A stretch of 7,983 nucleotides of DNA from Bacillota bacterium. GTDB lineage: Bacteria > Bacillota > Clostridia > Christensenellales > QAND01. The stretch's first letter is position 1. The number at the start of each line of letters is the position of its first letter. Under the pieces are notes generated by a model that had not been told where the DNA came from, made no database searches, and saw nothing but the letters and a program-made list of their open reading frames with translations. The position numbers and the translations under genes are program-made. Below are positions 398 through 7,983 of the stretch, in pieces. The DNA is taken from NCBI GenBank assembly GCA_019415425.1, contig DXZF01000152.1, positions 1-7,983 of the forward strand, given 5' to 3'.

Positions 398-724
398 TCA
401 TTGCGATCGCCTGATGTAGTTGGCCACGATCTCGATGAATTCAGACGCCGTTGGCGATGCCGCCATGGGATAGCCGGCCATCTCCACGATCTTTTTGGCA
501 TTGATCTTCCAAGCCCGGTGCACAAGGGTGCGAATGTTGCGCTCCACTGCATTCCAGTTGCAGCCGCACTGATCCGCTACAGCCATATACACATCTTTGA
601 CTACAGATTCCAGCCGGTCTTCATCCTCCAACACCAGCAAAACTGCCATTTCCACATGACGATACCCAAGGTAATTGTGGGTTCCACCCAATACGCGCAA
701 TGTTTCGCGAATTCGTGTTGTCAT
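398..724 (-). CDS. Orphan Spo0A C-terminal DNA-binding domain protein
   Basis: Predicted sequence-specific DNA-binding protein of 108 residues that is essentially only the effector domain of Spo0A, the master regulator of sporulation. Recognisable blocks, numbering from the chosen start, are the N-terminal helix region with LGYRHVEMAV (about 19-28), the recognition-helix signature VERNIR (60-65) followed by HRAW (69-72), and the C-terminal block SPTASEFIEIVA (about 90-101), which matches PTNSEFIAMVAD of Bacillus Spo0A. There is no phosphoacceptor receiver domain, so activity cannot be set by the usual phosphorelay through this chain. The first in-frame ATG (778) was rejected for the ATG at 724, because GGAGGGG sits 6 nt before it and the domain begins right after. 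The gene stands alone, with its own promoter and tandem 0A-like boxes upstream. Receiver-less paralogues are known in clostridial genomes; the targets here are unknown. It could act as a competitor or modulator of true Spo0A (inference). Confidence 0.9.
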   Translation of the reverse strand: MTTRIRETLRVLGGTHNYLGYRHVEMAVLLVLEDEDRLESVVKDVYMAVADQCGCNWNAVERNIRTLVHRAWKINAKKIVEMAGYPMAASPTASEFIEIVANYIRRSQ

Positions 725-730
725 TGCATT

Positions 731-737
731 CCCCTCC
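731..737 (-). promoter_or_regulatory. Ribosome binding site fixing the Spo0A-like start
   Basis: GGAGGGG on the minus strand lies 6 nt before the ATG at 724. It favours this start over the in-frame ATG at 778, which has no comparable site and would add 18 residues not seen in the Spo0A C-terminal domain. Confidence 0.8.
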
Positions 738-789
738 ATTTTTTCTATCAAAGAGAATAGTATCGCATATGATGACAATTGTAGTTCCT

Positions 790-1124: not shown

Positions 1125-2084
1125 TTAGCAGTGATGCGCAGCATCCACCGCCGCAAAGATGCGCTCGTGTGGCGCATTGGTGTGCAGCGTACAATCCGCC
1201 CCCAGAATAAAGCCCTTGCGGCCAAAATCCTTGACGATACGGCGCACTTCGTCGCCAATCTCTTCCAGCGTGCCGTCCACAATCACGCCGCTGCGGTTTT
1301 TCAGGCCGCCCCAGATCGTCTTGCCTTTGAACAGCTCGCGTCCCTGCTCAAGCGAAAAATCCGTCTCATACACGCCCCAGTTGAACACGTCTGCATAGTC
1401 GACGTAGCTCTCGTAGCGGTTCATGTTGAGGTTTTCCTTGCACATGTGGAAGAAGGTGTAGCAGCTGGACTGGTTCAGCACGCTGAGAATCTGCTTCTCC
1501 AGCGGTTCGACCAGCTCGGCAAACTCCTCATCGGTAAAGTAGTGCCTTTCACCGCCCAGGGAGGCATACATGATACCATCCAGCCCCATGGTGACAAATT
1601 TCTCCGCCGTACGCGTCAGACTGTCCGCCATGCGCTTGAACGCATCGGTGATGGGCTGCTTGTCCTCGCGGTAGTGCGCACACATCAGTTCACGCGTCTG
1701 CTCAAACGTATAGCCATCGCTGGTGGCATGCCGCATGGCCGCCACCACGCCGTGCAGCGTGCCCAGGCTGAAGTAATTGGGGTCCATCTTTTCCAGCAGG
1801 CGCTCTACGAGCTCAAACTGGCGCACGAACACCGTCTCATCGATGGGCAGCGAACGCACGTCTTTCCAGTCGGCCGCCGTCTTGACCCCGCTCATGCAGG
1901 GGATCCGGTTGTCATTCATAATTTTGCAGATATCCGCCTGCGTCTCGCGGAAATACTTCAGGTGCGCCTCTATCGCCGCGTCGCCATACTCCTGTCCCTT
2001 GGGGAAATGATACGAGAATCCACTGGGGATACCATCCACCTCTTGCTGCTTGATCGCAGCGATCACACGCTCTTTCGGGGTCAT
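1125..2084 (-). CDS. Uroporphyrinogen decarboxylase (URO-D) family protein, methyltransferase-like
   Basis: A 319-residue TIM-barrel protein of the URO-D superfamily, which contains HemE and the corrinoid/coenzyme M methyltransferases MtaA, MtbA and CmuA. It opens with MTPKERVIAAIK, the usual family N-terminus, but lacks the Arg-rich substrate motif (PVWxMRQAGR) of true HemE, so I do not call it a haem enzyme. FFHMC (211-215) and GADC near the C-terminus (295-298) give His213, Cys215 and Cys298. This is the His-X-Cys...Cys arrangement that binds the catalytic zinc in MtaA-type methyltransferases, so methyl transfer to or from a corrinoid or thiol is the best guess. No corrinoid protein or partner methyltransferase is next to it, so the substrate is unknown. 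The ATG at 2084 has AAGGAGAAGGA upstream; the longer in-frame start at 2225 lies upstream of the predicted promoter and cannot be on that transcript. It forms a single-gene unit with promoter, palindrome and terminator. Confidence 0.85.
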   Translation of the reverse strand: MTPKERVIAAIKQQEVDGIPSGFSYHFPKGQEYGDAAIEAHLKYFRETQADICKIMNDNRIPCMSGVKTAADWKDVRSLPIDETVFVRQFELVERLLEKMDPNYFSLGTLHGVVAAMRHATSDGYTFEQTRELMCAHYREDKQPITDAFKRMADSLTRTAEKFVTMGLDGIMYASLGGERHYFTDEEFAELVEPLEKQILSVLNQSSCYTFFHMCKENLNMNRYESYVDYADVFNWGVYETDFSLEQGRELFKGKTIWGGLKNRSGVIVDGTLEEIGDEVRRIVKDFGRKGFILGADCTLHTNAPHERIFAAVDAAHHC

Positions 2085-2086
2085 TG

Positions 2087-2097
2087 TCCTTCTCCTT
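2087..2097 (-). promoter_or_regulatory. Ribosome binding site of the URO-D-family gene
   Basis: AAGGAGAAGGA on the minus strand is a strong purine-rich site with core AGGAG 7 nt before the ATG at 2084. It decides between this start and the in-frame upstream ATG at 2225. Confidence 0.8.
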
Positions 2098-2104
2098 TTT
2101 TTCG

Positions 2105-2121
2105 GGATCGTCTCTCGATCC
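2105..2121 (-). other. Leader hairpin before the URO-D-family ribosome binding site
   Basis: GGATCG and CGATCC form a perfect 6-bp stem around a 5-nt loop (AGAGA on the minus strand) in the predicted leader RNA, ending 7 nt before the purine run of the ribosome binding site. It could stabilise the message or affect access to the site. No known riboswitch pattern is visible around it. Confidence 0.35.
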
Positions 2122-2142
2122 GTCCATGATTCCCTCTGCCCG

Positions 2143-2157
2143 ATATCCACAGGATAT
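2143..2157. promoter_or_regulatory. 15-bp palindrome near the predicted transcription start (possible operator)
   Basis: ATATCC-ACA-GGATAT is a perfect inverted repeat with 6-bp arms. The predicted -10 is at 2166-2171, so transcription should begin near 2159 and the palindrome covers roughly +2 to +17, a common place for a repressor operator. It could also fold weakly in RNA. No candidate regulator gene is adjacent. Confidence 0.4.
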
Positions 2158-2165
2158 GTAGGTAT

Positions 2166-2194
2166 ATTATATCTGTACGGCATGGAACATTCAA
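2166..2194 (-). promoter_or_regulatory. Sigma-A-type promoter of the URO-D-family gene
   Basis: On the minus strand TTGAAT (2189-2194) and a perfect TATAAT (2166-2171) are separated by exactly 17 bp. The predicted start near 2159 leaves a leader of about 75 nt. With the terminator at 1070-1104, this defines a transcript carrying only the URO-D-family gene. Confidence 0.7.
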
Positions 2195-2418
2195 TATTTC
2201 CCAGGCAAATCGCCGTGTGCAGCATCTTTCAAAATCTGCACGCTTGCCCGGCCACACCCTACAAACGCCGGCAAACCTGTGCCCTGGCGCACCATCCTCT
2301 CCGCACACGCAGGCCATTTGCGCACAAAAAGCGCGCATCCGTCACACCTTGCCTTCGTAGAGCGCCTTCGCACGCCACCGTGCCGGGCAACAGCGTTTGT
2401 GGTACGTTGCTCTATTGT
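2195..2418. other. Intergenic spacer after the four-gene operon, no gene seen
   Basis: Between the stop of the hydroxyacid dehydrogenase (2419) and the promoter at 2166-2194 I see no gene and no classical T-tailed terminator. One inverted repeat, TGCGCAC/GCGCGCA around AAAAA (2319-2337), makes a 7-bp stem with one wobble pair but has no T run after it on either strand. Read-through from the upstream operon into the URO-D-family gene is therefore possible. Confidence 0.4.
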
Positions 2419-3384
2419 TTAGACATCGCTTTTCCGATACCCGGTTTGCCGATCAACGCCGCAGACCGCCTCGCCGCGCAAAAAGCGTGCGAGGTTTTCA
2501 TAACACACGGCAAAGCGCCGCTCGGCAACAGCATGCGTCCGGCCGCCGGTATTGTGCGGCGTGATCGTCACGCGGCGATATTCCCACAGACGGTGTGACG
2601 GCGGCAGCGGCTCAGGGTCCGTCACGTCCAGCGCCACGCCGCTGAATTTGCCGACGTCCAGCATGCGGCACAGCGCGTCGGTATCGATGGCATTGCCACG
2701 GCCGACGTTGATCAGCAGCGCATCTTGCTTCATCAGTGCCATACGCCTTTCATCCAAAAGGTGCACGGTCTGTGGCGTGCTGGGCAGCGCCATGGCCACG
2801 ATATCGGCTTGCGGCAGCAGCTGGTCGGTCTTTTTCATGGGATTCATCTGGTCAAAGATCGCCGGGTCGCCCCGCCCGATGGTGCGCCGCACGCCGATGG
2901 TGGTCGCCCCCATCGCCTTGACACGCGCCGCATAGTGGCTGCCAATATCGCCCGCCCCCAGCACCAATACCACCGCGCCGTCCAGGCTGCGCGCCGGCCC
3001 TTCATCGCGCCACAGTTGCGCGCGCTGGTTGTCGCGGTACAGGTGCAGATTGCGCAGATGCATCAGAGTCACCGCCAACATGTATTCCGAAATATTGGGG
3101 CCGAACGTACCCGTTGCGTTGGCCAGCACGACTTCGGGCGACAGGACGCCTTCGCGCACGTAATTTTCACAGCCCGCGCTGGACAGCTGCAAAAACTGCA
3201 GGTTGCGCGACCCCCGGATCATTTCGCTGCCCGGGTTGCCCAGGATGATGTGTGCCTGCTGCGCCATCTCACGCGTAAGCGTCTTGCGCGAGGCAAAGGT
3301 AAAATGCGCTTGCGGCGCCAGGGCCATCAGCCGCTGTTTTTGCTCTTCCGTCACGTCCATCAATACCAGAATCTGTCTTTGCAT
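2419..3384 (-). CDS. D-isomer-specific 2-hydroxyacid dehydrogenase
   Basis: A 321-residue cytoplasmic oxidoreductase that interconverts a 2-oxoacid and the D-2-hydroxyacid using a nicotinamide cofactor; length is normal for the family. The nucleotide-binding fold is in the middle, with GAGDIG at 143-148. The catalytic set is complete: Arg229 in NVGRG, Glu258 in DPEP, and His277 in TPHNTG. The residues after the second strand of the Rossmann fold are GVRRT (164-168), with Arg instead of the Asp typical of strict NAD enzymes, which hints at NADP(H) use (inference). The substrate cannot be read from sequence; glyoxylate/hydroxypyruvate-type reductases and phosphoglycerate-dehydrogenase-like enzymes share this layout, but there is no C-terminal ACT domain as in many SerA proteins. 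The ATG at 3384 has AGGAG 6 nt upstream, 41 bp after the EFR1 gene, so it is probably the last gene of the operon. No terminator is obvious after it. Confidence 0.92.
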   Translation of the reverse strand: MQRQILVLMDVTEEQKQRLMALAPQAHFTFASRKTLTREMAQQAHIILGNPGSEMIRGSRNLQFLQLSSAGCENYVREGVLSPEVVLANATGTFGPNISEYMLAVTLMHLRNLHLYRDNQRAQLWRDEGPARSLDGAVVLVLGAGDIGSHYAARVKAMGATTIGVRRTIGRGDPAIFDQMNPMKKTDQLLPQADIVAMALPSTPQTVHLLDERRMALMKQDALLINVGRGNAIDTDALCRMLDVGKFSGVALDVTDPEPLPPSHRLWEYRRVTITPHNTGGRTHAVAERRFAVCYENLARFLRGEAVCGVDRQTGYRKSDV

Positions 3385-3425
3385 CTCCTTCTCCTCTCTG
3401 CTTCATCGCATGGTAAGAACGGCGC

Positions 3426-4178
3426 TTATACCTCTTGCGTGTTGAAGTACCGCCGCTTGCCGGCCGTTCGCTTGCCGTACTCGATTGCCTCGGTCGGGCA
3501 CGCATTGATGCACGCCATGCAGTGCGTACACCGTTTGCCCCAGTGCGGGCGCTTGTCGCGGATGTGGATGTTGTTGCAGACGCACAGCGTCGCACACCTG
3601 CCGCAGCCGATACATGCGTCCGTGGCAAAGAACGGCTTGGCCTTGACGACAAACCGATAAAATAGCGGGTTGACCACCGCGCTCTCCAACCGTCCCATAC
3701 ACCCGGGAGGCGAACTGTGCAGCGATTGCCCTGCGGCAATTTGCGCTGCGATCTGCCGCAGCACGGGCACGGCGCGCATGATCATGCCCTGCGCCTGCTC
3801 CTGTTGCGGGGCCTGGAACAGCGCGATGTAGTTTTCAGGCATCACGACCGCCTGTAGTCCCATAAAATCCAGCCCTGCCCTTTGGCAGAACTTCTGCGCA
3901 TAGTGTGCGGCGTTGCCCGCGCTGTCGCCGCAGGTGGTGACAAAATACGCCTGGCGGCTGCCCTGCCACTGCGTATGCAGCAGGTGCTCCTCCACCATGC
4001 GCGGGATGCGCCACGCATAGATCGGCGTCACAAATACCCACGGGCGGTCGGCATACAGCGGTGAATCCTCTCCCCGCTGCATGCGATCGCCCAATGAAAC
4101 AGCCGTATCGTCCAGCGCCTTTGCCAATACCTGCGCTGCGTAGCGGCTGTTTCCCGTGCCGGAAAAGTACAGAATCAC
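3426..4178 (-). CDS. EFR1-type flavodoxin/ferredoxin fusion protein
   Basis: A 250-residue electron-transfer protein with an N-terminal flavodoxin-like domain and a C-terminal domain for two [4Fe-4S] clusters. Numbered from the GTG at 4178, the FMN phosphate loop is FSGTGNS (5-11) within the family-typical start ILYFSGTGNSRYAA, and MPENY (113-117) is a second flavin-side motif. Cluster motifs are C189-C192-C195-C199 and C217-C220-C223-C227-P. The first cluster is followed by Val-Cys201 instead of the usual Pro. Electrons presumably pass between FMN and the clusters; the partner is unknown. The GTG is preferred because AGGAG lies 8 nt upstream and the product then starts exactly where relatives do. 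An in-frame TTG at 4202 would add eight residues and has only a weaker AGGGG site. It sits 36 bp after the MBL-fold gene and 41 bp before the dehydrogenase, so a shared redox pathway is possible but unproven. Confidence 0.88.
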   Translation of the reverse strand: MILYFSGTGNSRYAAQVLAKALDDTAVSLGDRMQRGEDSPLYADRPWVFVTPIYAWRIPRMVEEHLLHTQWQGSRQAYFVTTCGDSAGNAAHYAQKFCQRAGLDFMGLQAVVMPENYIALFQAPQQEQAQGMIMRAVPVLRQIAAQIAAGQSLHSSPPGCMGRLESAVVNPLFYRFVVKAKPFFATDACIGCGRCATLCVCNNIHIRDKRPHWGKRCTHCMACINACPTEAIEYGKRTAGKRRYFNTQEV

Positions 4179-4186
4179 TAGCGATG

Positions 4187-4191
4187 CTCCT
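4187..4191 (-). promoter_or_regulatory. Ribosome binding site supporting a GTG start for EFR1
   Basis: AGGAG (within GAGAGGAG, 4187-4194) lies 8 nt before the GTG at 4178. It overlaps the codons that would follow the alternative TTG start at 4202, so the two starts exclude each other and the GTG fits the family N-terminus. Confidence 0.7.
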
Positions 4192-4214
4192 CTCTCATCC
4201 AACGAATGGAACCC

Positions 4215-4835
4215 CTATTCCTGCATAAAGGGATTGTGGGCGCGCTCCCAATGCAGCGTAGTCGCGCTGCCGTGGCCCGGCAATACGGTATAATCGCCCG
4301 CAAGCGCCGCCAGGCGCTGTAACGAGGCGCGCATCGCCTTCGGATCGCCAGTCGGAAAGTCCGTACGCCCACAGCTACCGGCAAAGAGCGTATCGCCGGC
4401 AACCAAAAAGCGGTCCACCACATAGCATACGCTCCCCGCGGTGTGGCCCGGGGTGTGCAGCACCTGCCAGTGCATCTGGCCAACGTCAAACGCATCGCCA
4501 TCTGCCACCGTCCGATCCGCCGTGAGCGAGAGCGGGCGCATGGCCATCGCTTCGGAGAGATTGAGCGCGGGGGAAGCCAACAGCGCCGTCTCCTTTTCTC
4601 CGATGCACACCGGGCACGCATACCGCTCGCGCAGCGTCTGTACGGCGCCAATGTGGTCAAAGTGTCCATGCGTCAACGCGATCAGCCGCACGCACAGCTG
4701 TCGCTGCTGCACAAATGCCTCTACTTCGCGTCCGCTCCCGTCACAATCCACGATCACGGCCTGCCCATCGGCATCGTACAGGATGTGACAGTTGGTGCCC
4801 AGCGCACCCAACGAAAACGTCTGCACTTCGATCAT
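4215..4835 (-). CDS. MBL-fold metallohydrolase, glyoxalase II-like
   Basis: A 206-residue single-domain metallo-beta-lactamase-fold hydrolase of the short hydroxyacylglutathione-hydrolase-like group (YcbL/YqgX type). The dinuclear metal site is complete: THGHFDH (55-61, His56, His58, Asp60, His61), His131 in HTPGHTAGS, Asp148 in GDTLFAGSCGRTD, and His188 in LPGHG. The protein lacks the C-terminal extension that binds glutathione in classical glyoxalase II, so a thioester or other small acyl substrate is possible, and glutathione is not expected in most Clostridia. No signal peptide is seen, so it should be cytoplasmic. The ATG at 4835 has AGGAG 7 nt upstream. It lies 41 bp after the EndoQ-helicase gene and 36 bp before the EFR1 gene, inside the predicted operon. 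Confidence 0.92.
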   Translation of the reverse strand: MIEVQTFSLGALGTNCHILYDADGQAVIVDCDGSGREVEAFVQQRQLCVRLIALTHGHFDHIGAVQTLRERYACPVCIGEKETALLASPALNLSEAMAMRPLSLTADRTVADGDAFDVGQMHWQVLHTPGHTAGSVCYVVDRFLVAGDTLFAGSCGRTDFPTGDPKAMRASLQRLAALAGDYTVLPGHGSATTLHWERAHNPFMQE

Positions 4836-4853
4836 ATTTCTTCTCCTCTCCTC

Positions 4854-4877
4854 TGGTAGATCACTTGGTAGATCACT
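4854..4877. repeat. Perfect 12-bp tandem duplication in an operon gap
   Basis: TGGTAGATCACT occurs twice head-to-tail (4854-4865 and 4866-4877) with no mismatch. The pair fills the gap between the stop codon of the EndoQ-helicase gene, which shares base 4877, and the purine-rich region before the MBL-fold gene. It looks like a recent slippage duplication that adjusts spacing. A regulatory role is not indicated. Confidence 0.9.
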
Positions 4878-7800
4878 CAGAACAGGCTGAGCTGTTTGCC
4901 CTGTTGCGCCCTTTGCGGCGTTCGGATGGTTACGCGCTCGATGTCCTGCTGTGCAATCTCCTGCAAAAAGGGCGAGGGCTGCTGAGTGGCCGTGAGAATC
5001 AATTCATCTCTGGCGCGCGTCATGCCGACGTAGAACAGCCGCCGTTCCTCCTGCACGTCTGCCGTGCCATGCGTGGATTCCAGCGGCAGCGTGCCCGCAT
5101 TCACACCGCATACAAATACCACGGGAAACTCCAACCCCTTGGCGCCGTGCAGCGTCATCAGCGTCACTGCGCCGGAGGCGTAATGCCTTTGCTCGCTGCG
5201 TCGCAAATCGCTCTCCTGCCCCAGCAGCAGCGTCTGCAGCAACGCGGGCATATCGGCGTGCAGCTGTGCCATCTGTTCCAGTTTTTTCAGGCCTTCGCTA
5301 TGCGGATATCCCATGCGCTGTCGCCACGCCTGCAGCAGTGCGACCGGGCTTTCGCTCTGTACGCGCGGTGCCAGCGCACACAGCGCATCCAAACAGGGGT
5401 GATACTTCTCCCCCGCCTGCGCGCGCACGGACGCGATGCGCGCCTGCCAGTCCTGTTCCTTTTCCGTTTGTGCCCAGGCCTGCAACAGCGCCTGTACCTC
5501 TCGCTTGCCGGCGCGCTTTTGAGCGCACAACAGCGCTTGCAGCGCCCCGTCGTTGTGGGGCTGCGTCATGCACCGGAAGGCGCAGAGCGCTTCGTGCACG
5601 CGCGAATCCTGCAAAAAATCCTCCCGCCCCGTCACCACATACGGGATTCCTTCCCTGCGCAGGCACTGCTCCAGCACCTTTGCCTGGCGGTGTGTGCGGT
5701 ACAGGACGGCGATCTCGGCAAAACTGCGCGCATGCGTGCGCGTCGAGGCGCCGGCGAGCTGTTGGGCATCCAGCATATCCACACCGCCGACCATGCGGTT
5801 GATCTCTTTGGCAATCCAGATGGCCTCTGCCAGATCGCTCTGTGCCGTGTACAGCCGTACAGGCGCCCCCGCTTCGCGCTGCGCGTGCAACGTGCGGGCA
5901 GCGCCGTCGTTGTGCTGTACCACCGACAGCGCACACGACAGCACCTGCGGCGTAGAGCGATAGTTTTGCACCAGTGCAATGGTGCGCAAATCCGGTTCCG
6001 CCTGTTTTAGGTGTGCAAAGCACTGCGCATCCGATCCGCGAAAGCCGTAGATGGACTGATCGGGATCGCCGATGACGAACAGCGATTCGTTCCCCTTCGC
6101 CCAGGCTCGAATCAGCCGGTGCTGCAGCGCGTTGATATCCTGGAATTCATCCACCAGCAGGTGCGTAAATGCCGGTTTCTGTTCAGGCATGTCCAGCGCC
6201 AGCGCGCGCAACAACAGGTCGTCAAAATCCAGCGCATGCCGCTGTTCCAGGCGCCGCGCATACAGCGCCAACGCCTGCGGGGGGACATCGGTACACGGCA
6301 ACTCATTTTTGTGCCGCGAAATGCCCTCCAGCAATTGCGCAGGGGACAGCGAAAGCCCCAGTGCACGCACAATTTCATGCGCCAGTGCCAGCGCCTCGTC
6401 AGGGTCGATCAACGTCACGGTCCCGGATTGCTGCTGCAGCAGTTGCAGGCAGATGCTGTGGAACGTACCGATCGTCATGCCCCGGATGGCCTGCTTCCCA
6501 CCCAGCTGCGCCTCCAGCCGCGCGCGCATTTCCTGCGCCGCCTGGTTGGTAAAGGTGACGGCCGTGATGGTGTCGGGCCTGGCCTTTTGCCGCTCCACCA
6601 GGTGGATGATCCGCGCAATCAGCGTTTGCGTCTTGCCAGTACCCGGCCCTGCGATGACGGCCACGGCGCGCTCTTGCGCGCAAGCCGCTGCCCGTTGTTC
6701 TTCATTGAGCGTAGCAAACAGTTCTCCGGCTGGTTGGGCGGGGGGCCGTACCGCTTCGCTGCTTGCCTGGTGGCGCGCAGGTTGGGCCGTTTTGCGCGCC
6801 TGCTTCTTTGCGGGGGCCGCCTGTGCCCCGTCAAAAAAACCGATTTGCCCTTGCAGGGCGTCCCGCTGCGCCTGATCCAGCAATTGGATGGTTCCATAGA
6901 CGCCATCGTACCCCGGCGTACGCTCCACCTCCTTGCAGCGCAACCGCCGAATGCCTTCGCGCACACACGGACCCGCTACGCGCGCAATGGCATCGAGCGG
7001 GGCCTGCCGCAGGATGAAAAACTCCGTGCCCAGCGCCTGCAACATGTGCTCGTACTGCGCCTGCACGCGCACGCTGGTAGGGCCGCGTCCCGTCGAGGCG
7101 GCAATGACTTCGGGCAGCGGCACCAGGCTCTCAAATGGGCGCGCGTTTTCGGGCCGGTAGCCCCAGGCACGATCGGCCAGCTGCTCCACGCGGTGCTGCA
7201 CACCGATGGTGATCTTTTTCCCGCACACAGGGCATTTGCCGCCCAAGGCCTGTGTCTGCTCTGGCGTCAGGCACAGTTTGCAGTTGCGATGCCCATCGTA
7301 GTGGTATTTGCCCTCTTCCGGAAAAAACTCGATGGTCCCCACAAGGCCCTCGCCCGTCTGCAGCGCACGGTACAGCGCCGCATAGCCGTAGGGGATCTCC
7401 AGTAGATTGGCTTCGCGCCCCAGCTTGCTGGGCGAATGCGCATCGGAGTTGGAAATGAGGCGGTAGCCATCCAGCTGCGACAGCTGCCAATTCATGGGCG
7501 GGTCGGAGGACAGGCCCGTCTCCAACGCGTAGATGTGCGGTGTGAGGTCGCCATAGCATTGCTCAATGGTCTCAAAGCCCGAAAATGCGCCAAACAGCGA
7601 AAAGTGCGGCGTCCAGATGTGCGCCGGGATGAACAGCGCCTGTGGGCAGCATTCGAGCGTGATCTCCAGCAGGTCGTGGCTGTCCAAGCCCAATATCGGG
7701 CGCCCATCGGAATGCAGGTTGCCCACCTGTTCCAGCCGGTGCGAGAGCCGCTCGGCCGCTTCCAATCCCGGCAGCAAAATCACGTGATGCACTTTGCGCA

Positions 7801-7983
7801 CCTTGCCGTCTTTCTTGTAGATGGTGCTGATCTCTGTAGAGCATACGAACCGGGGTTCCGGCGCACCGTCAATGGAAAAATCCTGCACGCGATACGCGTC
7901 CTTGAGCCTGTAGAACCCTTCCTCTGCCGGTTCCAACTGCTCCCGGCACAGGGCGCGCCAGGCCGGATGCGTAAAGTCGCCGG
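4877..7983 (-). CDS. Endonuclease Q-UvrD/PcrA-type helicase fusion (5' end beyond window)
   Basis: DNA-repair fusion with 1034 residues visible; roughly the first 40, including the PHP HxH motif, lie off the right edge. Numbering is from the first visible residue. Residues 1-385 match EndoQ, a PHP-fold endonuclease that nicks 5' of deaminated bases and abasic sites: GDFTHP (1-6), CSTEIS with Glu50, His65-His66, LDSHDLLE (99-106), IPAHIWTPH (118-126), NSDAHS (178-183), and a Zn ribbon with Cys234, 237, 250 and 253. A low-complexity Ala/Pro/Lys/Gln linker (about 385-420) leads to an SF1A helicase with every motif: Q motif near 425-433, Walker A GPGTGKT (445-451), DEFQD (611-615), GDPDQSIYGFRG (638-649), QNYRST (672-677), TLHGAKGLEF (943-952), VGMTRARDEL (985-994). 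The C-terminus is QLSLF (1030-1034), a sliding-clamp-binding consensus. Fusion should couple lesion nicking to strand unwinding. The TTG at 7936 is not the start, because EndoQ residues continue upstream in frame. It is the first visible gene of the operon. Confidence 0.93.
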   Translation of the reverse strand, partial: GDFTHPAWRALCREQLEPAEEGFYRLKDAYRVQDFSIDGAPEPRFVCSTEISTIYKKDGKVRKVHHVILLPGLEAAERLSHRLEQVGNLHSDGRPILGLDSHDLLEITLECCPQALFIPAHIWTPHFSLFGAFSGFETIEQCYGDLTPHIYALETGLSSDPPMNWQLSQLDGYRLISNSDAHSPSKLGREANLLEIPYGYAALYRALQTGEGLVGTIEFFPEEGKYHYDGHRNCKLCLTPEQTQALGGKCPVCGKKITIGVQHRVEQLADRAWGYRPENARPFESLVPLPEVIAASTGRGPTSVRVQAQYEHMLQALGTEFFILRQAPLDAIARVAGPCVREGIRRLRCKEVERTPGYDGVYGTIQLLDQAQRDALQGQIGFFDGAQAAPAKKQARKTAQPARHQASSEAVRPPAQPAGELFATLNEEQRAAACAQERAVAVIAGPGTGKTQTLIARIIHLVERQKARPDTITAVTFTNQAAQEMRARLEAQLGGKQAIRGMTIGTFHSICLQLLQQQSGTVTLIDPDEALALAHEIVRALGLSLSPAQLLEGISRHKNELPCTDVPPQALALYARRLEQRHALDFDDLLLRALALDMPEQKPAFTHLLVDEFQDINALQHRLIRAWAKGNESLFVIGDPDQSIYGFRGSDAQCFAHLKQAEPDLRTIALVQNYRSTPQVLSCALSVVQHNDGAARTLHAQREAGAPVRLYTAQSDLAEAIWIAKEINRMVGGVDMLDAQQLAGASTRTHARSFAEIAVLYRTHRQAKVLEQCLRREGIPYVVTGREDFLQDSRVHEALCAFRCMTQPHNDGALQALLCAQKRAGKREVQALLQAWAQTEKEQDWQARIASVRAQAGEKYHPCLDALCALAPRVQSESPVALLQAWRQRMGYPHSEGLKKLEQMAQLHADMPALLQTLLLGQESDLRRSEQRHYASGAVTLMTLHGAKGLEFPVVFVCGVNAGTLPLESTHGTADVQEERRLFYVGMTRARDELILTATQQPSPFLQEIAQQDIERVTIRTPQRAQQGKQLSLF
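6811..6852 (-). other. Candidate -1 frameshift/slippage site at the EndoQ end
   Basis: Coding-strand codons GGT TTT TTT GAC contain the slippery heptamer T-TTT-TTT (6833-6839) in the correct phase. A -1 ribosomal shift, or one extra T added by RNA polymerase, gives TGA as the next codon, producing an EndoQ-only protein ending in QIGFF. An SD-like AAGGG (6848-6852) lies 8 nt upstream of the run, and a GC-only hairpin (CGGGG/CCCCG or GGGGC/GCCCC, 6811-6830) starts 2-4 nt after it. The layout resembles dnaX. Use in vivo is inference; TTT TTT also encodes Phe-Phe elsewhere in this gene. Confidence 0.35.

Follow-up and report, generated by a model that had tools for sequence, protein, structure and literature searches.

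EndoQ nicks DNA 5' of a lesion and leaves a 3'-OH and a 5'-phosphate (PMC4357722; here and below, papers are cited for individual passages). Two follow-up routes were drawn in 2015: in one, a polymerase working with Fen1 displaces the strand; in the other, EndoV makes a second cut and a helicase carries out the removal (PMC4357722). The passages concerned describe EndoQ as occurring in some or a few bacteria (PMC4357722; PMC4858679). The known enzymes, PfuEndoQ, TkoEndoQ, MacEndoQ and the EndoQ of B. pumilus, are about 400–425 amino acids (aa) long and carry no helicase. We describe here a gene on a 7,983-nucleotide stretch from a Bacillota bacterium (contig DXZF01000152.1 of assembly GCA_019415425.1; hereafter the window), the product of which differs from these enzymes in joining an EndoQ homologue of a separate clade to a complete UvrD-type helicase.

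Our reading of this fusion is that it is probably a clamp-tethered excision-repair enzyme: it would cut the DNA 5' of a deaminated or abasic base and afterwards strip off the strand bearing the lesion. On the sequence evidence we lean modestly towards this account, and an order of events in which nicking precedes unwinding fits the anatomy of the modules.

The gene is a single unbroken frame of 1034 codons on the minus strand (4877–7981) that runs on past the window's right edge. A public protein of 1073 aa (P0002) covers 100% of its product at 99% identity, with 13 differing positions, and supplies the missing 39 residues; these start MIIADLHIHS and include the PHP HxH motif, which an earlier reading of the DNA (the sequence-only reading) had expected just beyond the edge. 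We considered and rejected a frame artefact or chimera, since 120 listed proteins (P0002–P0121) cover 98–100% of the query and full-length fusions occur in genomes of ten phyla. Residues were compared in an alignment of 42 fusions, the rows of which were hand-chosen from the 120 listed proteins and 80 genome loci; the helicase motifs in it carry what we take to be their usual names. The parts of the gene are as follows.

4877..7981, minus strand: EndoQ–UvrD fusion gene; its 5' end (39 codons in P0002) lies past the right edge of the window.
6839..7981, minus strand: EndoQ module (P0002 residues 40–420).
7223..7282, minus strand: zinc-ribbon cysteines CxxC...CxxC of the EndoQ module, read from the DNA and complete in the window.
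6833..6847, minus strand: junction motif QIGFF, of clamp-binding type, closing the EndoQ module; read from the DNA.
6731..6832, minus strand: linker between the modules, predicted to be disordered (predicted local distance difference test score, pLDDT, below 50 at P0002 residues 418–456).
4916..6733, minus strand: UvrD/PcrA-type helicase module.
6629..6652, minus strand: Walker A (AGPGTGKT), read from the DNA; Lys in 42/42 aligned fusions.
6137..6151, minus strand: motif II (DEFQD), read from the DNA; DE in 42/42 aligned fusions.
5015..5050, minus strand: motif VI (EERRLFYVGMTR), read from the DNA; last Arg in 42/42 aligned fusions.
4880..4894, minus strand: C-terminal motif QLSLF, of clamp-binding type, the final five residues, read from the DNA.

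The domain search places the N-terminal part in the EndoQ family, as the sequence-only reading had proposed. PfuEndoQ (5zb8) matches residues 61–371 of the window protein (E 1.1e-36) and TIGR00375 residues 58–365 (E 3.5e-43), and both the sequence and the fold of the PHP, zinc-ribbon and C-terminal domains are those of EndoQ. The same reading had seen a complete UvrD-type helicase in the same frame, and this too is borne out: the UvrD N and C domains match at residues 425–660 (PF00580, E 1.3e-55) and 668–1000 (PF13361, E 1e-48), and Walker A, DExx and motif VI can all be read from the DNA. With both domains and intact motor residues, the helicase is of the UvrD type of superfamily 1A.

The catalytic positions that were compared are retained. 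The positions aligned with His84, His139, Gly169, Ser171 and Asp193 of PfuEndoQ are identical in the window protein and in all 42 fusions; a Glu at the position of Glu76, which lies outside the aligned stretch and was placed by hand, is likewise identical in 42/42. Roles as metal ligands or in the base pocket have been assigned to Glu76, His84, His139, Gly169 and Ser171 of PfuEndoQ (PMC8307549), and that of the catalytic Asp follows from Asp192 of MacEndoQ (PMC6202378). Every aligned fusion also shares the HxH pair and seven residues of the helicase motifs. Three Cys of the zinc ribbon are kept in all 42, and the second (position 276 of P0002) in 34.

As judged from sequence, the strongest link of the two halves to replication-coupled repair is a pair of clamp-type motifs, which the sequence-only reading had missed. 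In B. subtilis, PolC binds the clamp through QLSLF; the consensus is QL[S/D]LF or QxxLF, and the sliding clamp offers two identical sites (PMC12309361). The fusion ends in the same QLSLF as PolC, within a segment of low pLDDT, but differs from PolC in having two motifs in one chain and no polymerase. Both motifs lie in stretches of low confidence in the predicted model, which are probably disordered. Archaeal EndoQ binds PCNA, and clamp motifs have been pointed out in bacterial EndoQs (PMC4858679).

The motifs are far commoner than in shuffled sequences. When seven of the 80 genome loci, cut by a contig end or with a short frame, are set aside, the final 15 residues contain the C-terminal motif in strict form in 64 of 73 fusions (shuffle mean 0.39) and in loose form in 70 (shuffle mean 4.07). 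The strict junction motif, most often QISLF, is present in 37/56 (shuffle mean 0.33), 17 of the 73 having no locating anchor. Among the listed proteins the corresponding strict counts are 117/120 at the C-terminus and 97/116 at the junction (four without anchor). In the alignment the junction Gln is found in 41/42 rows; mean column identity is 0.64 for the junction motif against 0.25 for the linker, and 0.77 for the C-terminal motif against 0.27 for the tail. The tail motif is absent from all nine other UvrD-type helicases examined from six fusion genomes and from all 36 classical EndoQs, and a clamp motif occurs in three of 22 fusion-type EndoQs that stand alone. Taken from the motifs, it is likely that the fusion protein binds the sliding clamp through both.

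By analogy with PfuEndoQ, the EndoQ module would flip out uracil, hypoxanthine or an abasic site and cut on its 5' side, so that the damaged strand would be left with a 3'-OH and a 5'-phosphate at the nick. UvrD, PcrA and Rep track 3' to 5'. A helicase of this kind, placed on the intact strand opposite the nick, would move downstream in the direction of the polymerase and displace the strand whose 5' end carries the lesion. The motifs suggest that the sliding clamp would hold the protein at the nick and pass the 3'-OH to a clamp-bound polymerase; given two motifs in the protein and two sites on the clamp, one molecule could fill both or share the clamp with the polymerase. Flap removal and ligation would be the last steps. 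For the step that follows an EndoQ nick the fusion offers a motor in the same chain, and its clamp motifs hint at what keeps the successive steps together; with motor and motifs in one chain, the question can be put to one purified protein.

The flexible linker and the clamp-type motifs would also fit a scanning or fork-associated role, in which the helicase acts before the cut, on the clamp or on single strands, and presents lesions to EndoQ; replication-associated EndoQ repair has been proposed (PMC4858679). EndoQ, however, works on double-stranded DNA by base flipping (PMC8307549), so that prior unwinding is unneeded, and we regard a helicase-first order as rather unlikely.

The fusion is widespread. 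A scan of one genome per species yielded at least 587 relatives confirmed by tblastn, possibly including helicase-only ones. The best 80 of these include full-length fusions in records of ten phyla, mostly metagenome-assembled genomes (MAGs), with titles naming Bacillota/clostridial taxa, Spirochaetes, Gemmatimonadetes, SAR324, KSB1, Latescibacterota, Planctomycetota, Fibrobacteres, Anaerolineae and Caldithrix. The top genome match is a Clostridiales MAG (L001, 57% identity), which points to an uncultured clostridium as the probable source. Pfam PF27218 is assigned to nearly all hits in two of the listings. Where the sources give a name it is 'UvrD-helicase domain-containing protein' or 'TIGR00375 family'; the former stands on clostridial entries, much as the sequence-only reading had it. 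That reading was right about the fusion and both families but understated the spread.

We also surveyed TIGR00375 in five groups, 731 genomes in total; the groups were centred on known carrier genomes, so the frequencies are not global rates. Matches of any length were found in 153/299, 44/64, 30/120, 21/100 and 63/148 genomes. Frames of fusion size (at least 900 aa) were found in 31/299 (among the matches listed; seven matched genomes lie outside that listing), 37/64, 20/120, 8/100 and 0/148, or 96/731 overall among the matches listed, with the helicase directly confirmed in the sampled loci. One of the 20 such frames in the 120-genome survey has an internal TAG. The first survey covers the window-like phylum (the phylum of G001), and its 153 matches indicate that such homologues of EndoQ are common in some bacteria.

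Some individual records may be mentioned. In L051 (5485–8685) the frame of the fusion gene is continuous but for an in-frame stop that separates the linker from Walker A; the gene may be split or a pseudogene, or the stop may be an error in the sequence. Genome G007 (L130) carries a fusion at 1576–5190 and, about 7 kb away on the opposite strand, a second fusion-type EndoQ without a helicase (12253–13506).

The two halves also occur as separate genes. In a Nitrospirae MAG (L068) and a Desulfobacterota MAG (L079) the EndoQ frame stops after its motif (QGTLF and QLGLF), and the separate helicase gene terminates in QMGLF or QLTLF. In the phylum of the former genome (Nitrospirae, G586), all 63 matches among 148 genomes are EndoQ-sized frames. 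We inspected 40 EndoQ loci of this phylum with about 3 kb of downstream flank: a helicase is the immediate same-strand neighbour in 11 and lies 1.6–2.7 kb away in two. The loose motif ends 32 of the 40 EndoQs (shuffle mean 1.5) and 10 of the 11 paired helicases; the helicase frames of L221 and L246 are not properly readable. Each gene of such a pair mostly has its own end motif, so a clamp tag can come with either half, and both are retained in the fusion.

In the EndoQ trees the fusion-type proteins form a clade separate from the sampled clostridial classical EndoQs, with a support of 100 in the SH-like approximate likelihood-ratio test (SH-aLRT). The distribution of fused, paired and lone forms requires ten changes of the fused state, deep branches being weak, and the paired EndoQs make up one branch (support 90) amid the fused ones. 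Fused and paired helicases split from nine other UvrD-type helicases of the same genomes on a branch with SH-aLRT 87, and these nine differ further in lacking the tail motif. The sequence trees, within their weak deep support, are compatible with an ancient fusion that was lost several times and split once; alternatively, the fusion may have arisen more than once. A Treponema record (L048) falls within the clostridial branch, which may reflect transfer or misbinning, and a second spirochaete record (L069) lies outside it.

The repair context of the window-like phylum bears on a further alternative: EndoQ would cut on one side of the lesion and EndoV on the other, and the short fragment between them would be taken out by the fused helicase. 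A helicase step of this kind appears in section 29 and the figure 10 legend of PMC4357722. EndoV (PF04493), however, is found in only three of the 299 genomes: in 0/153 with an EndoQ match against 3/146 without (p 0.12). It is absent from all 33 fusion genomes (31 recognized by frame length and two by a helicase match at a contig end). With EndoV nearly absent, and never together with EndoQ, this route is not general in the phylum and a one-nick route is simpler; we reject it there, unless another 3'-side endonuclease substitutes, and hold it to be improbable in the extreme. The scarcity of EndoV also makes the EndoQ family a natural candidate for inosine repair in this phylum.

A fusion and a classical EndoQ share a genome in two of the 299 against 11.7 expected (p 7e-5, kinship being ignored here and in the UDG tests below; ten matched genomes unclassed), as expected for proteins with one job, or merely for separate lineages. 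Uracil-DNA glycosylase (UDG, PF03167) is absent from 13/33 fusion genomes against 19/266 others (p 3e-6; 12 of these 32 UDG-less genomes were identified as the complement of the listed UDG carriers). The corresponding figures in two other phyla, 3/37 against 4/27 and 0/20 against 3/100, show no such link. With the association significant in one phylum and absent in two, and kinship ignored, UDG replacement as a general reason for the fusion is not upheld, and we make no claim that the fusion replaces UDG.

The lack of a UDG link in these two phyla counts against a clamp-tethered repair enzyme, and several other observations have to be added to it. The window protein, without its first 39 residues, scores 148.4 bits with TIGR00375 against a curated cut-off of 326.6; of the 153 genomes with a match in the window-like phylum, only one passes it. 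The protein is therefore filed as a divergent EndoQ homologue and not as TIGR00375 itself. Its clade shares 24–35% identity with classical clostridial EndoQs in matched stretches, and to our knowledge no member has been tested and no fusion-type EndoQ has a known activity. The second zinc-ribbon Cys is replaced in eight of the 42 aligned fusions, by Arg in five, Ser in two and Val in one (L072, L075 and L077 are loci with such a replacement). The polarity assigned to the fusion helicase is carried over from the direction of UvrD, PcrA and Rep. Clamp binding is read from the motifs, and QIGFF at the window junction is a variant of the consensus, with Phe at the fourth place.

Many fusion-type EndoQs, moreover, stand alone (22 in the tree, mostly without a clamp motif), and in 27 of the 40 Nitrospirae-phylum loci no helicase lies in the roughly 3 kb downstream flank. 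The helicase is therefore dispensable to some of them; scraps of a helicase remain downstream of EndoQ in L126. Such lone forms would be expected if the modules shared a chain for co-localization or co-expression only and carried out separate reactions. Against this stand the span of the fusions over ten phyla, the grouping of fused with paired helicases and the recurrence of adjacent gene pairs in the phylum of the Nitrospirae genome, and we find separate reactions decidedly unlikely.

Among described helicases, the fused motor falls short of the cut-offs of the UvrD, PcrA and Rep models (TIGR01073, 334 against 911 bits; TIGR01074, 309 against 951; TIGR01075, 301 against 1144). It matches solved structures of the AddAB, RecBCD and AdnAB type, which it resembles in combining a UvrD-like motor with a nuclease for DNA repair. 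In those complexes the nuclease sits at the C-terminus and works on double-strand ends, whereas the fusion has an EndoQ-type nickase at its N-terminus.

The helicase half also matches the PADLOC models of Gabija GajB (E 1.1e-73). In Gabija a partner gene, gajA, lies beside gajB; none of the five genes annotated downstream in the window is a gajA, and the upstream side lies past the window's edge. This match would suit an antiviral effector directed against uracil-containing or base-modified phage DNA, and a review has suggested that bacterial EndoQ may join antiviral defence (PMC8307549). The listed PADLOC models match the helicase part only, however, and UvrD-like motors in general may score on GajB models. 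Downstream, the window contains genes of metabolism or regulation. In 50,697 phage records and 72,556 plasmids the EndoQ part found no match, and viral contigs yielded no confirmed one. We consider an antiviral function highly unlikely, and on the same record searches we reject the idea that this is a phage or plasmid gene.

A search of the openly accessible literature (titles, abstracts and passages; subscription papers fall mostly outside it) returned no description of an EndoQ–helicase fusion. Both halves are known; as far as this literature can be searched, there is no description of how widely the architecture is spread, of the second clamp motif or of the gene-pair form. We put forward tentatively, and as something short of probable, that this is an undescribed and widespread repair machine, in which one protein nicks at deaminated bases, unwinds the damaged strand and grips both sites of one clamp. 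Repair would then follow a long-patch pathway independent of a glycosylase, and the protein would be the physical counterpart of the helicase step postulated for EndoQ in 2015.

The window contains no tRNA and no Rfam match. A 126-aa protein at 401–778 (minus strand) matches the Spo0A C-terminal DNA-binding domain only (PF08769, E 9e-27), in a frame without a receiver domain. This Spo0A C-terminal-type regulator comes last of the same-strand genes downstream of the fusion, after an EFR1-family ferredoxin, a 2-hydroxyacid dehydrogenase and a URO-D-type protein, in that order. Nearest to the fusion is an MBL-fold hydrolase (PF00753; 4215–4835, minus strand), which begins 41 bases past its stop codon on the same strand and may therefore be co-transcribed with it.

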